From contig JAFTYI010000011.1 in the NCBI GenBank assembly GCA_017464815.1, positions 1-64,000 on the forward strand: a stretch of 64,000 bases of DNA, given 5' to 3'. Positions 4,842-52,166 of this stretch are shown piece after piece. The number at the start of each line of letters is the position of its first letter. Positions within the stretch are counted from its first letter, which is position 1. The notes beneath the pieces are model-generated. The model was given only the letters and a program-made list of their open reading frames with translations. It was not told the origin of the DNA and searched no databases. The DNA comes from Bacteroidaceae bacterium (GTDB taxonomy: Bacteria; Bacteroidota; Bacteroidia; Bacteroidales; Bacteroidaceae). A program made the translations under genes and the position numbers.

Positions 4842-4915
4842 CTACCTTAACCCTGGCATAAGGATAGATTAAGCCAAGGTTAAGGCAACCTTAACCCAAG
4901 GCTAAGGTTCTTTAA
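4842..4915. repeat. intergenic array of AAGGTTAAGG-type words with hairpin
   Basis: Four or five variants of CCTTAACC or GGTTAAGG occur here. The centre is a perfect 8-bp inverted repeat with loop CAA (4878-4885 and 4889-4896). It lies just beyond the GH115 stop and upstream of the mutS promoter. It may act as the 3' end of the GH115 transcript, but there is no U-tract. Confidence 0.6.
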
Positions 4916-9939: not shown

Positions 9940-10150
9940 TCAATGTTTACACTTAATAAATCAGTCACTTCCAACTGTCAACATTCTTTTTACCTTATTG
10001 TAAATAAATAGAAAAAAGAGAGGATTATTCCTTATCAACTGTGACATAAGGGTGGTTCATACGAGAAATATATTTCATGCATCAGATATTTGAATATCAA
10101 TGATTTACGTTGTAGTTCTGATTTTCATAAATTTCGAAGTAAATAGAAAT

Positions 10151-10512
10151 GCTTGCGCATATACGCAATTCTCGTGCGGTCAATTTTGCATATTCATGCA
10201 AAATGGCGGTATAATTATGCAATCAAAAGCAGACAGGATGAGAGCACCTCTCCTAAACATCCGATGAATCGTTCCTAAACATCCGCCGAAAAACTCCTGT
10301 ACATACTCTGATTCTTAGGTGTATATGAACAGAAATTCTCCTACGCTTCTGCGGATATTTAGGAGAGGAAGGCGGGAAATGTCCTTTTTGTACAATTGCT
10401 CCACTCATTTTGTTACTGGCTTCTTTTCGCTTTATGCATAATATGCGACCTCTAACTTCGATGAAGTAGGAATAAAATGGCTATACAGAAATTATTACCA
10501 AATAATGTAAAG
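10151..10512 (+). repeat. element A, copy 1: structured interspersed element
   Basis: This stretch aligns along its whole length with 24775-25182. Shared landmarks in order: a GCATATACGC block; a TGCAT-ATTC-ATGCA palindrome (here with 8-bp arms); TATAATTATGCA; two direct copies of TCCTAAACATCCG; a TCCTACGCTTC block; and CGGATATTTAGGAG (10352-10365), which pairs with CTCCTAAACATCCG (10250-10263) over 14 bp with one mismatch. After these come ATGCATAATATGC and the closing TTATTACCAA block. No ORF is conserved. It is not a known insertion sequence to me. It ends just before the trmH promoter. Confidence 0.75.
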
Positions 10513-10531
10513 GAAAAACAAACTCATTTTT

Positions 10532-24576: not shown

Positions 24577-24774
24577 AGTGGAGAAAACAACCCACTTCCT
24601 GTAAACATACGAGAATTATGCTTGTAAACTTTTAGAAAAACGGAGCAACTCACTTGGCCTTATCACGTGGATGGGGCAGGCTCCACCTTGGGATGACATC
24701 TGTTTTTCTATCTGTTGAGCATCAGACGCTTATGAGTGTGGCGAGATTTTCTCCATTTTCCGTTCACGGAGAAA

Positions 24775-25182
24775 GTCGCATGCATATACGCGATTCTCGC
24801 GCGGCCAATGGTGCATATTTATGCAGGGCGGGTGCATAATTATGCATTCAAGCGCAGTCGGGAGGGCGATTACGTTCTTCTTCCCACGACCTCTTCAAGG
24901 CAGCACTCCTAAACGTCCGATGATTCGCTCCTAAACGTCCGCCAGAATTCTCCTGCACACGTCCCGATTCTTTGGTGCGCACGGGCGGATGTTCTCCTAC
25001 GCTTCAGCGGATGTTTAGGAGAGGATGGGAGAGGTGGTCTATCAGTAACCGCCCCACCCGTCTCTTCCCCTTTTCCCCTCTATGCATATTTATGCAGAAA
25101 CGCCCCCGCTATACACCCTTTCCCTCTGACGAAACAGGGATGAAATGGAAGTGCGGGATTTATTACCAAGTGGTGTAAATAT
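24775..25182 (+). repeat. element A, copy 2: structured interspersed element
   Basis: Same order of blocks as 10151-10512, more GC-rich. CTCCTAAACGTCCG (24906-24919) pairs with CGGATGTTTAGGAG (25008-25021) over 14 bp with one G-U wobble, and the arm-to-arm offset of 102 bases is identical to copy 1. Palindromes TGCATAATTATGCA (24833-24846) and ATGCATATTTATGC (25082-25095) and the TTATTACCAA end are shared. The 24577-25433 gap holds this element, element B copy 3 and no gene I can support. Confidence 0.75.
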
Positions 25183-25260
25183 GTGTGAGGATAGCAATAA
25201 AATGAGACGTGGAGCTTCCAAATGACAAAGGGGGTGTTTCAAAATGATGCCTTTTGTTTT

Positions 25261-25394
25261 TTTAAGGCACGGATTACGCGGATTTTTCGCTTTGCTCAAG
25301 GGAACTTCACGGATAAATTATAACCGCTCGGGTATAAAAATGAAATATAAATCCGCGTTAATCCGTGTAATCCGTGCCTAAATTTATTTTTGAC
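25261..25394. repeat. element B, copy 3 (MITE-like, full form)
   Basis: Terminal inverted repeats GGCACGGATTACGCGGATT and AATCCGTGTAATCCGTGCC enclose about 80 bases that match the inner part of copy 1 in reverse orientation. It is flanked by TTTAA and AAATTTATTTTTGAC. It lies 39 bases past the comM stop. Confidence 0.8.
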
Positions 25395-37984: not shown

Positions 37985-38065
37985 TCTATCCAAGATAGAA
38001 TTTCAGCTATCAGCTGATAAAAGTTTGACCATCAGCTGATAAAAATTTCTCGATTAGCTGATAGA
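37985..38065. repeat. TATCAGCTGATA palindrome array
   Basis: TATCAGCTGATA (38008-38019), ATCAGCTGATA (38031-38041) and TTAGCTGATAG (38054-38064) recur with about 23-base spacing between two divergent genes. The rest of 37892-38166 shows only a weak -7-like TATCTTCG (38133-38140) before the glycosyltransferase. Confidence 0.65.
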
Positions 38066-44795: not shown

Positions 44796-44916
44796 CGCTT
44801 AAGCGTTAGCTCCGTATCTCTTAAGCGATAAGTTCGTAACTCTTAAGCGTTAGCAAACTAACGCTTAAGAGATATCCAGCCACGCTTAAGGGTTACTCAA
44901 TAACTCTTTAGCGTGG
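44796..44916. repeat. CTTAAGCG word array forming two hairpins between convergent genes
   Basis: CGCTTAAGCG palindrome (44796-44805). A perfect 14-bp hairpin CTCTTAAGCGTTAG / CTAACGCTTAAGAG with loop CAAA (44840-44871). A 16-bp hairpin with one mismatch between 44880-44895 and 44901-44916. All share the word CTTAAG. Probably a two-way transcription barrier, though without U-tracts. Confidence 0.75.
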
Positions 44917-49451: not shown

Positions 49452-51716
49452 ATGAAAAAGTATTCTCTTTCAATGTTGACCCGTTCCTTTTGGGTGATGT
49501 CGGCACTTGTGGTATTTGTATCGTGTGCTGATAAAGATTTGCTTGAAAATGAGACGGTGCAACTGAGTGATAAAAGAATATCTTTCGGAGTTTCCAAGAG
49601 CATGCGCTCTTGGATACCCGATTCGCGTGCTTTGGAAGGGAATACATGTGTCAGTTTGCCAAGTGTGAGCGATGACCCTACTTTCAATGTGGGTGTAGAA
49701 ATCACAACAAAAGCGAACCATAGTAGAGGAATACAAATTATCGAGGCCTCCGATTTGAAAGAATTCGATGTTTCGGCATATTATTTCAAAGAAGGAAAGG
49801 ATGAAGCCGAATTGTTCTTTACGGAAGAAGTGACCGATGGGGTGAACATTTCGGACAACACTTATTATTGGCCCGAAAAGGGAGTAATGGATTTCATGGC
49901 TGTTTCGCCTATAGATGCGGTTGCAACGATGCCTACAGCAGGTGATTATAACTCCCAAAATATTAGTTTTGATTATGTGATAGCTGATGACGAATCTCTA
50001 CACAATGATTTGATGGTTGCCCATTCCATAAGCATAAATAACTTTGCTACGGGTGATGCTGTTCCTTTAAATTTCAAACATTTATTGGCTTCTGTTCGTT
50101 TTAAAGTGGGAACCATGCAGTTTATTAGGATAGATGCACTGACTTTGTCGGGCGTTTATGGAGGAGAGGTGACCTTTACTTACGATAAGAATACAAATGC
50201 ATGGACAAATTCTGTTCCTACAACGATAAAGACATACACTCCCGATTTTGTGGATACGTCGGGGTTGCCCGAAGATTCCGAAATAGCAGGCAATGAAAAC
50301 AATGCCACTTTGTTTATGGTGCCACAAACTCTTCCCGAAGGAGCCAAGATAACCGTGTCTTATACAGAATTGCTTACGGGAGAATCAGATACAGGTGAAG
50401 CTGATATAAGCGGACAAATTTGGGAGGCTGGCAAAGATTATGCGTATTCTTTTAATATAGGTACGACATTCGATGTTACTATCCCAACTCCTTCTGATCA
50501 AGATGCACATTACATTATGTTGGAAATGCCTTATAAATTAGGTGGTCTTTCTTCTTATGTAAGTTCTATTAAGGCTACCGCTCGTTTCTTGGATGATGGT
50601 AGCAACACTTCTTCTAAATCGGGTATATCGTTGAAGTTTAAGGAGGATTTGTCGGAAACACAAAAATTGGGTTTTTGGACAGATAAGCAATATCAAGAGA
50701 CAATAACAATTGATAGTGAGGGAAACTCATCTTCTTCCGGGATTCAAGAAATTGGTAATATTCGTGGCGATAGTGAATTGAATATCAATAATTATACTGG
50801 TACGATTGTATTGTTCATTGAAGAAAATAACGGAACTACCCATCGTAATGGTGAATTGGTGTTTACGGCGACATTGAAAAATGGAACAAATGTGATTATT
50901 GGTCAGGGGAATTTCAAACAATTGTCTCCCTGCTGGAATGATGCAGGAATCGGAGTTGAACGTATAGAAAGTTCCAATGCAGTTTATCCTTATGGATTTG
51001 ATTATACAAGAAAAGTGATATACCGGACTACGGGGTGGACAGCGGTTTCAGCTATTTTATCTTGGATTCTTGAATGGTCTATCAGTAGTACCATAACTGC
51101 TGATGGAAAATTTGTGAAATTTAATTATGGTAGTGTGGGATTTTTAGGATGGAATGCTCTTGTTTCTATTGAAATAGATTATTCAGCATTAAATAATGTT
51201 CAGACGGTTGCTGCGGGGAATAATGGATTAGATAATACAAGAGCTTTGTATAATACTACAGGAAATTCTGACATAGCAGATATTGAAGAGACGTTAAATG
51301 GAAATTCATCTCTTAGTGTTAGTAGTACTACAGGAAGTACTGAAATTCCTAAAGATTATGCTGCGTTTATAGCACTTGCTCGTAATAGGATGTATGAATT
51401 GGAGACCGTTGTAAAGAGTAGTGGTGAGGATGATGCGATTTCACACAATGCAGCTCTATACGAAGACAGCAATGGTGAAGACATCATTGAATGGTATCTC
51501 CCATCATCAACGGAAGCTCAAAGATTGGTAGAAACAGGTGTAGGCTCGGATGCCATTTCTCCTTTGCATGGGGAATATTGGTCATCTACCGCAGGTTCGG
51601 ATACAGAGGCGTATGCACATTCTTATACATTCTATAATAATACGTTTGGTTCCGTAAATGAGAACAAACCGCGTATGAATACACTTAAAGTCCGTGCCGT
51701 CCGCAACAAACCCTAA
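49452..51716 (+). CDS. large fimbrillin-like lipoprotein with C-terminal FGE/DUF1566-like domain
   Basis: 754 residues. Lipoprotein signal with VVFVSC (Cys about 25). A pilin-type Arg site (DSRALEG) and a fimbrillin-like first part follow, with NFKHLLASVRFKVG and WEAGKDYAYSFNIG. The middle (about 360-520) is beta-rich. The C-terminal 150 residues (EYWSSTAGSDTEAYAHSYTF, LKVRAVRNKP) match the DUF1566/Lcl-like or paralogous fibrobacter-type domain often found on surface adhesins. At twice the size of a shaft pilin and last in the locus, it is a candidate tip or adhesive subunit (inference). AT-rich like its neighbour; 5-base gap. Confidence 0.82.
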   Translation: MKKYSLSMLTRSFWVMSALVVFVSCADKDLLENETVQLSDKRISFGVSKSMRSWIPDSRALEGNTCVSLPSVSDDPTFNVGVEITTKANHSRGIQIIEASDLKEFDVSAYYFKEGKDEAELFFTEEVTDGVNISDNTYYWPEKGVMDFMAVSPIDAVATMPTAGDYNSQNISFDYVIADDESLHNDLMVAHSISINNFATGDAVPLNFKHLLASVRFKVGTMQFIRIDALTLSGVYGGEVTFTYDKNTNAWTNSVPTTIKTYTPDFVDTSGLPEDSEIAGNENNATLFMVPQTLPEGAKITVSYTELLTGESDTGEADISGQIWEAGKDYAYSFNIGTTFDVTIPTPSDQDAHYIMLEMPYKLGGLSSYVSSIKATARFLDDGSNTSSKSGISLKFKEDLSETQKLGFWTDKQYQETITIDSEGNSSSSGIQEIGNIRGDSELNINNYTGTIVLFIEENNGTTHRNGELVFTATLKNGTNVIIGQGNFKQLSPCWNDAGIGVERIESSNAVYPYGFDYTRKVIYRTTGWTAVSAILSWILEWSISSTITADGKFVKFNYGSVGFLGWNALVSIEIDYSALNNVQTVAAGNNGLDNTRALYNTTGNSDIADIEETLNGNSSLSVSSTTGSTEIPKDYAAFIALARNRMYELETVVKSSGEDDAISHNAALYEDSNGEDIIEWYLPSSTEAQRLVETGVGSDAISPLHGEYWSSTAGSDTEAYAHSYTFYNNTFGSVNENKPRMNTLKVRAVRNKP

Positions 51717-51804
51717 GGTCAAGGGATCTTATCCTAAGGATGATGTTACCTTATCCTTGGGATGGGCATCAGTCGGTTGGTAGCAATGGTCGTTTGGAAA
51801 AAAT

Positions 51805-51905
51805 GCGGCTTGCATTTTTTCATGTGCTACTTGCAAAAAATATTTTGCGCCTTGCATTTCAGGTAAGTGCAAGCCGCAGAATTTAAAATGCAAGTCGCAT
51901 TTTTC
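51805..51905 (+). terminator. TTGCA-word hairpins and terminator after the pilus locus
   Basis: A 10-bp inverted repeat GCGGCTTGCA (51805-51814) / TGCAAGCCGC (51868-51877) encloses GCAAAAAATATTTTGC. It is followed by AAAATGC-AAGTC-GCATTTT (51885-51903) with a T run to 51904. Upstream, 51725-51765 holds ATCCTAAGGAT-type repeats. No gene is seen in 51717-52073. Confidence 0.7.
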
Positions 51906-52020: not shown

Positions 52021-52034
52021 CGCCCGAAAACCAA

Positions 52035-52084
52035 TTGTGGAGAGATTTGGGCAGCTTGCAACCACAGTAAAAAATGCTAAAATG
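52035..52084 (+). ncRNA. SAM-II-like riboswitch in the metK leader
   Basis: P1 arms TGTGG (52036-52040) and CCACA (52062-52066) enclose GATTT and a CTTGCAA segment; A-rich AGTAAAAAAT and GCTAAAA (52076-52082) follow. The order GATTT, TTGCA, closing P1 arm, A-rich strand, GCTAAAA is that of the SAM-II (metA-motif) pseudoknot. Location at the very 5' end of a metK transcript supports SAM feedback control. It lies about 105 bases before the metK ATG, so it does not directly cover the metK ribosome site; see the overlapping short ORF. Confidence 0.7.
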
Positions 52085-52166
52085 GACAGCCATGGGGCTG
52101 TGTGCATCGTTTTTTCTACTTCTACCCATTTTCTTTCCCGAGGGCTATAAAATAACGGAGAAATAA
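52074..52166 (+). CDS. possible leader peptide ORF overlapping the riboswitch
   Basis: 30 codons starting [20 protein letters not shown]. The ATG (52074-52076) lies inside the 3' strand of the predicted riboswitch and the stop is 23 bases before metK. Hydrophobic middle. A small hairpin ACAGCC-ATGG-GGCTGT (about 52085-52100) and TTTTTT (52109-52114) fall within it. It may be a chance ORF; no homologue recognised. Confidence 0.25.

Follow-up and report, generated by a model that had tools for sequence, protein, structure and literature searches.

The window analysed here is a stretch of 64,000 nucleotides from a Bacteroidaceae bacterium (contig JAFTYI010000011.1 of assembly GCA_017464815.1, positions 1 to 64,000). 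It carries two intergenic stretches that the initial annotation had singled out for sharing one ordered series of blocks, and pairwise comparison bore this out. The stretches were originally placed at 10151-10512 and 24775-25182; their homology holds, but the left limit had to be moved, since conservation sets in at YTGTAAACATTTC, 176 bp farther out, in an alignment of 13 complete copies from the genome with their flanks. The elements so delimited and their parts are listed in Table 1. A 13-copy nhmmer profile, which includes copy 2 and excludes copy 1, recovered both with the scores given there, whereas shuffling the window three times yielded nothing above 3.3 bits.

Table 1. Coordinates of the two element copies and their parts within the window
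Feature	Position	Length	Strand	Score
Copy 1, whole element, type A middle	9975..10517	543 bp	+	nhmmer, 216 bits
Copy 1, left end: TGTCAA and TGTAAA boxes, 23 bp apart	9976..10004		+	
Copy 1, conserved core (CATATACGCAATTCTC) and two TGCATA-type palindromes	10158..10221		+	
Copy 1, array (type A): 22-bp lattice of TCCTAAAC-type units, final unit inverted	10250..10365		+	
Copy 1, 3' module, end ATTATTACC...TGTAAAGGAAAA (inner limit approximate)	10418..10517		+	
Copy 2, whole element, type A middle	24599..25185	587 bp	+	nhmmer, 497 bits
Copy 2, left end: two TGTAAA boxes, 23 bp apart	24600..24628		+	
Copy 2, conserved core (CATATACGCGATTCTC) and palindromes at 24812-24825 and 24833-24846	24783..24846		+	
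Copy 2, array (type A): 22-bp lattice of TCCTAAAC-type units, final unit inverted	24906..25021		+	
Copy 2, 3' module: third palindrome at 25083-25096, right-end TGTAAA at 25174-25179	25083..25185		+	

The palindromes are conserved across copies, and no long open reading frame is present, the longest per copy having a median of 55 and a maximum of 117 amino acids versus 45 in shuffled copies. An Rfam scan of the window at gathering thresholds returned only tRNA and SAM-II, the latter a riboswitch at 52031-52090 (53.4 bits), and no family at either stretch, as had been supposed. At the places orthologous to the window copies, the element was found in 0 of 12 relatives for a SpoU-family gene and in 0 of 11 for a Mg-chelatase-family gene (one second G007 locus is left out of these counts); these absences say little because gene order there is rearranged. 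Just past copy 2, at 25262-25380, lies a long inverted repeat (GGCACGGATTACGCGGATTT ... AATCCGTGTAATCCGTGCC).

A dispersed element with sharp ends

The element had been described as present twice, which is true of the window and not of the genome (2.63 Mb, 58 contigs), where a search with copy 2 found at least 39 matching places. These were grouped by hand from 50 rows and are a lower bound, because 40 of 45 candidates were scored. By profile, 35 of the 39 have both ends, L025 lacks the left one, and L019, L027, and L055 each consist of a solo middle array. A 97-position sequence profile of the core matched 7 of the 251 family genomes sampled, all 7 within the element's own genus (15 genomes), and gave no match in the 236 other family genomes sampled (E value of 1e-5, stricter filters); the single copy of G014 breaks off past model position 215. 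Among named genomes, the exact core pattern matched 29 stretches, all in MAGs labeled "Bacteroidaceae bacterium" from sheep rectum, goat cecum, and water buffalo rectum, in a scan that may omit genomes very near the window's own. Neither the plasmid nor the phage collection held a match to the element, and the single viral-contig match proved to be host DNA, with 1.7 kb matching G005 at 95.5% identity. All loci fetched comprise 87 distinct two-ended copies, identical inner sequences being counted once and some named loci possibly sharing the genome of G005. Their length is 507 to 641 bp in 69 copies, and one of the 87 measures 430 to 439 bp.

The frame starts at a sharp left end, YTGTAAAYATTT, with a pair of TGTAAA boxes 23 bp apart in 81 of 88 listed spacings. 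There follows an array of CCAAGGCTAAG units, spaced by 22 bp in 36 of 39 cases, of which 135 instances with at most three mismatches occur in the 87 copies; shuffled copies gave 25 and no 22-bp pair. Then come a nearly invariant core, CATATACGCGATTCTC..GCGGTCAGTTTTG, two TGCATAWWTATGCA-type palindromes 19 to 22 bp apart, the middle, a third TGCATAWWTATGCA-type palindrome, and the equally sharp right end, TTATTAC-N8-TGTAARGAAAA, whose TTAC...GTAA hairpin is nearly invariant (each pair kept in 67 to 69 of 69). The window also has, at 4846-4905 and 51707-51780, solo arrays that look like the 5'-module array of CCAAGGCTAAG units, and an exact F-array hairpin pattern matched none of 15 genomes.

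Information content is close to 0 outside the element and reaches 1.8 to 2.0 bits inside it at both ends, as measured on 87 copies for the left end and 82 for the right. Because TGTAAA, with one mismatch tolerated, served as the anchor of this profile, the values within the anchor are inflated; positions outside the anchor are equally sharp (left A7, 1.84 bits; right TTAC, 1.9 to 2.0 bits). By eye, the left end, YTGTAAAYATTT, and the right end, GTGTAARGAAAA, form no terminal inverted repeats; they share TGTAAR in direct orientation. Nor was a target duplication detected: the longest word common to both 20-bp flanks is 3.96, versus 3.73 to 4.22 for mismatched flanks, in a test that would miss very short or variable duplications. 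Right flanks often show other intergenic repeats (AGCCCCCTCCGACTCCCCC-like or ACAAATACAGCTGCCGGCTATGGC-like) starting at or soon past the right end (L026, L033, L042, L072, L082, and L219).

Unrelated arrays on a shared period

At least four unrelated middle types occupy this one frame. Classified by motif counts, the middles of the 87 two-ended copies are of type C (33 copies), A (31), B (17), and D (5), with one copy not assigned. Type A is built on TCCTAAAC, type B on TTAGCCGCTAA with GAGAGG, type C on GTGTGCACAC, and type D on CGCTTAAG, while a fifth type, E (AGTACT), was met only as a solo array and never framed. Of 77 same-strand spacings in type A, 75 measure 22, 44, or 66 bp, and an inverted unit stands 14 bp past the last direct unit in 29 of 30. 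The leading same-strand lags are 23/46/69 bp in type B (17 copies), 22/45/67 bp in type C (18 copies), 22/43/65 bp in type D (4 copies), and 22/44 bp in type E, where steps of 14 and 8 alternate (5 loci). Autocorrelation over the whole element peaks at lags 22 (z of 4.9) and 44 (z of 3.2); the left flanks have no peak at 22 or 44, their top z being 2.0 at lag 9. The middles, with mean identities of 0.90 in type D (4 copies), 0.89 in B (17), 0.75 in C (18), and 0.67 in A (30), are more conserved than the outer 170 bp, where a mean identity of 0.55 to 0.60 gives no sign of a recent burst.

Arrays of types A, D, and E are also found without the frame, and a diverged frame in G002 bears B and C arrays too (by eye). 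One solo type D array lies in an intergenic, frameless stretch of the window (44798-44890) and has five CTTAAG sites at steps of 21 to 22 bp. Another array of the same plan, shortly upstream of the SAM-II riboswitch (51809-51894), has CTTGCA three times at 21-bp steps and then, inverted, TGCAAG twice with a 21-bp spacing, and three near-identical AGCTGATA-type palindromes follow one another at a 22-bp step at 38007-38060. Solo AGTACT arrays (L234, L249, L236, L237, and L244) number at least 15 in G012 and one in G007; by core profile, G012 has one framed copy and G007 none. The histogram of noncoding palindrome spacings peaks at 22 (13 pairs, with 8 at 18). In the noncoding part of 463 kb, runs of at least three identical palindromic hexamers number 3 at 22, 9 at 19, 3 at 28, and 1 at 37; because 22 does not stand out among them, the idea that palindromes arrayed at 22 bp are a theme of the whole genome is unproven and a lead only.

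Does the array act as RNA or as DNA? Selection on a structure, either RNA or a DNA fold, had been proposed from a 14-bp pairing kept at a 102-base offset in both window copies. The pairing is there (10250-10263 with 10352-10365 in copy 1; 24906-24919 with 25008-25021 in copy 2), as are the A-C mismatch in the former and the G-U wobble in the latter, but the offset does not stand alone and belongs to the 22-bp site lattice. Across 30 copies, this helix has 89.7% of its cells paired, 3 double-change pairs versus 2.2 in shuffles, and a covariation score of 0.085 versus 0.060, reached by 9 of 500 shuffles. A mutually exclusive alternative, in which unit 2 pairs with that 3' arm, performs equally well (88.4% paired; 2 double changes versus 1.7; score of 0.088 versus 0.058, reached by 1 of 500). 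The scores exceed those of shuffles, but the signal is weak and not specific to a helix; that both exclusive pairings score alike suggests a single motif present in related copies, not a single helix, and the proposed selection on RNA structure is not supported by it. The RNAalifold covariation term is -0.03, and the variable dinucleotide of the units matches between inverted arms in 23 of 115 cases, with 22.1 expected.

One 5'-module stem has about 83 A-C versus about 70 G-U cells (summed by hand from printed rows). When the fold of the 5' module is predicted for each strand separately, G-U cells outnumber A-C cells on both (391 versus 251 sense, 531 versus 289 antisense), so that no strand stands out, and an excess on either strand is expected because the fold is chosen per strand. 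The middles do fold better than shuffles on both strands, with mean z-scores that range over types and strands from -2.3 to -4.6 (30 shuffles for each of 28 copies). Sense and antisense values are -4.5 and -2.3 in type A, -4.0 and -4.6 in B, -3.3 and -3.2 in C, and -4.6 and -3.5 in D; 5' modules score about -1.6 to -2.7 and 3' modules -1.1 to 0.3, and the sense RNA of the whole element scores -4.3 in copy 2 and -2.0 in copy 1. The G-U and A-C counts per strand and the dinucleotide comparison of the units favor DNA over RNA, and a DNA fold or protein-bound DNA may be what the element forms.

Gene neighborhoods, empty sites, and probable exchange of middles

The element avoids genes and gene starts. 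Under gene calls from a codon-score heuristic rather than a standard gene caller, none of the 87 copies is inside a gene. Gene 3' ends face the element in 72 cases, 26 of them within 50 bp, and gene starts in 73, where only window copy 1 is nearer than 115 bp; its 53-bp gap contains, by eye, putative promoter boxes. Between tandem genes, the sense orientation prevails over the antisense (27 versus 5; two-sided p of 1.1e-4), and 16 of the 59 copies with both neighbors called lie between divergent starts. A cruder ORF count over 69 copies goes in the same direction (left, 44 plus and 24 minus; right, 47 plus and 17 minus). In a subset of 22 copies, with 6 tandem sense to 2 antisense, there is no replication-strand bias: GC skew and the strand of genes 3 to 12 kb away are followed in 11 of 22 each, so the orientation bias is local. 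A promoter role was considered, as matches to a Bacteroides-type promoter consensus occur in 76 of 87 copies on the sense strand, 63 of 87 on the antisense strand, and 55 to 65 after shuffling; it was not adopted because the sense excess consists mostly of AT-rich palindromes with mismatched boxes.

Presence and absence were compared at loci of relatives that match the left-flank gene of G000 copies. Of 24 left-gene segments prepared, 23 were searched (L053 was left out but for a few letters), and 18 of the 23 copies found a match. After three short, weak, or cut loci (L189, L190, and L272) were dropped from the 43 listed, the element is present in 2 and absent from 38 of 40 loci: 2 of 19 in a first set from G012 and G013, and 0 of 21 in a second set from G002, G005, G012, and G013. 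The absence is weaker at L253 and L256, which end at contig ends, and likewise at loci resting on short or weak matches (L188, L270, and L271) or paralogous within one genome (L257 and L260). The cleanest empty site is L175 in G012, where both flanking genes are common with L014 in G000 and about 163 bp lie between the aligned flanks instead of 706 bp; because the gap at L175 holds other inverted repeats, this site does not place the ends to the base, and neither does any other empty site. At the site orthologous to L004, G012 has a solo type D array, and G013 has an inverted repeat similar to the one just past copy 2.

No autonomous relative or longer element with the same ends was present among the loci fetched. 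G000 contains a single match to a Y1-transposase-like (RAYT-like) protein (L168:1261-2298), which at 345 amino acids is longer than the 121-position domain; G005 and G013 have similar matches. Across the 15 genomes of the genus, a search for Y1_Tnp found no enzyme correlating with the element: a Y1_Tnp-like gene occurs in 3 of 7 carriers (G000, G005, and G013, and not found in G006, G002, G012, and G014) and in 2 of 8 noncarriers, all counts coming from incomplete drafts, and in the loci examined it is not flanked by the element. In the absence of a clean association with carriers, the RAYT was rejected as the mover.

Two orthologous left junctions bear different middles in two species. The alignment of L023 (G000) with L082 (G013) is continuous for 1573 bp at 87% identity, from the left gene to about 250 bp inside the element, past which one has a type C and the other a type D middle and the right flanks are not common. 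L049 and L104 align over 1525 bp from the left at 73% and then diverge into B and C middles. Other pairs with different middles are L048/L080 (B, D) and L109/L114 (B, C), each with a common left gene and extra sequence ahead of one element (about 339 and 108 bp), and L003/L077 (A, C), with the right flank alone in common. Middle type is kept in L007/L063 and L006/L062 (A) and in L020/L111, L070/L086, and L035/L083 (C), the last with both flanks in common. L021/L060 (B, A) have a left gene in common, with the element at differing distances from it. The nearest neighbor has the same middle type in 55 of 87 copies by the outer 5' part, 62 of 87 by the inner 5' part, and 66 of 87 by the 3' module, versus about 26 when shuffled; frame and middle type are linked, but not fully. 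Of the five different-middle pairs from L023/L082 to L003/L077, four share one flank alone, the fifth (L109/L114) having short right-flank similarity, which makes recombination between loci at least as likely as an in-place exchange of cassettes.

Comparison with known repeats and interpretation

Our search of the open PMC literature returned no prior report of the element. By gross features it resembles MITEs, being short, noncoding, multicopy, and intergenic, and it may well behave like one; lacking terminal inverted repeats and a detectable target site duplication, it is not a MITE by those two tests. Short protein-binding sites about two helical turns apart are also known from the iterons of plasmid origins, which have one motif per replicon beside an initiator gene and no movable frame; the element has similarly spaced sites, predicted to bind proteins, but of unrelated motifs and in a probably movable frame. 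REP sequences are palindromes of 20 to 40 bp with a GTAG or CGTC tag, and REP/BIME elements are extragenic, often at gene 3' ends, and assumed to spread in trans; a 585-bp frame with exchangeable arrays is much longer. Porphyromonas gingivalis belongs to the same order as the host of the element. According to its description, the BrickBuilt repeat of that species is always intergenic, with 19 copies in one strain, and consists of a leader, a middle array of 23-nucleotide repeats, and a tail, with long stem-loops predicted; the array is a uniform tandem repeat of variable number, and the ends carry small terminal inverted repeats, GAGACCTTTGCA / TGCAAAGGTCTC, like those of the IS5-family elements ISPg1 and ISPg9 (PMC4596501). 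The likeness is one of layout: leader, array of about 23-nucleotide units (22 to 23 bp here), and tail. The ends of our element differ from GAGACCTTTGCA / TGCAAAGGTCTC as given there and are not inverted repeats by eye, its array is a nearly constant series of diverged units whose final part is inverted, and one frame accommodates at least four unrelated arrays. Separately, an inverted repeat with ATGAGTTCGGGATAAGGAAT to the left of the element at L014 looks by eye like the terminal repeat ACGTGAGTTCGATATAAAGGAA in Table 2 of the BrickBuilt description (PMC4596501). PINSR of Prevotella intermedia and Prevotella nigrescens is described as a clade-limited intergenic repeat of 188 bp in 177 to 184 copies, held to be noncoding and without terminal inverted repeats, whose functions and source call for further study in the words of its authors (PMC4755523). 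By description rather than sequence, our element is alike in being intergenic, noncoding, clade-limited, and free of terminal inverted repeats; it differs from PINSR in size and in its exchangeable middle, a feature that the available part of that description does not mention.

The copies are dispersed, their ends are sharp, and their arrays are periodic. With moderate confidence, we read the element as a nonautonomous, dispersed, noncoding mobile DNA element with fixed ends and exchangeable arrays, of 22- to 23-bp period, that are predicted to be protein bound. It would move between genes as a unit, helped by an enzyme encoded elsewhere in the genome. Its ends would be read in trans by a recombinase or transposase without duplication of the target; sharp, non-inverted ends and the lack of target duplication speak against a classical DDE transposase and fit a trans-acting recombinase or a single-strand transposase. 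From helix geometry, a lattice of sites every 22 to 23 bp suggests DNA-binding proteins arranged on one face of the helix. Middles would be exchanged through recombination between copies within the shared frame, an account of the differing middles that is as good as, or better than, a dedicated exchange of cassettes. Interchangeable arrays on one geometry further suggest, as the weakest step, that the geometry serves a common assembly and the motif gives specificity.

Several of the observations above go against this reading, among them the excess of sense orientation between tandem genes, for which DNA binding alone gives no explanation, and the better folding of type A middles as sense than as antisense RNA. 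Together with the placement near gene 3' ends, these two make the best argument for a role in transcripts and keep alive an RNA rival, in which the element is part of the 3' untranslated region of the upstream gene and its hairpins stabilize, end, or process the message. The local nature of the orientation bias, the good folding of the middles, and the sense advantage of type D as well as A agree with it. We nevertheless hold it unlikely, because the two strands of types B and C differ little in how well they fold, G-U pairs are not favored on one strand, the inverted arms do not covary beyond chance in the unit test, 16 of 59 copies sit between divergent starts, and no Rfam family matches.

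Mobilization of a REP/BIME-type element as single-stranded DNA, by a Y1 (RAYT-like) transposase reading hairpins near the ends, would account for ends that are not inverted by eye, for the missing target duplication, and for palindromes near both ends, including the nearly invariant right-end hairpin, and RAYT-like proteins exist in three of the genomes. It is nonetheless quite unlikely, given the distribution of Y1_Tnp over carriers and noncarriers, the Y1 gene unflanked by the element, the lack of a strand bias of the lagging-strand type, and a length far beyond that of REP. Improbable, too, is a patchwork of older, immobile intergenic repeats whose presence and absence reflect loss and rearrangement through recombination between copies. 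Low identity between copies, flank sharing that is commoner on the left than on both sides, and the separate occurrence of F-array-like units of the 5' module and of type A, D, and E arrays fit such a patchwork; the information kept at several positions of both ends and the 38 of 40 matching loci without the element between close species argue against it.

Small intergenic repeats are recurrent in Bacteroidales, and one frame with unrelated but geometrically alike middles is a natural experiment: what all arrays have in common, the 22- to 23-bp period, is likely what matters, and what differs, the motif, is likely to confer specificity. Since unrelated middles stand on one geometry, a binder can be searched for by pull-down, and the presence and absence of the element between close species make its movement testable. 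Quite tentatively, the frame could be a socket that takes unrelated arrays of two-turn geometry as plugs, each addressing a different DNA-binding protein. If so, swapping the array would change the protein that controls the element or the adjoining gene ends.
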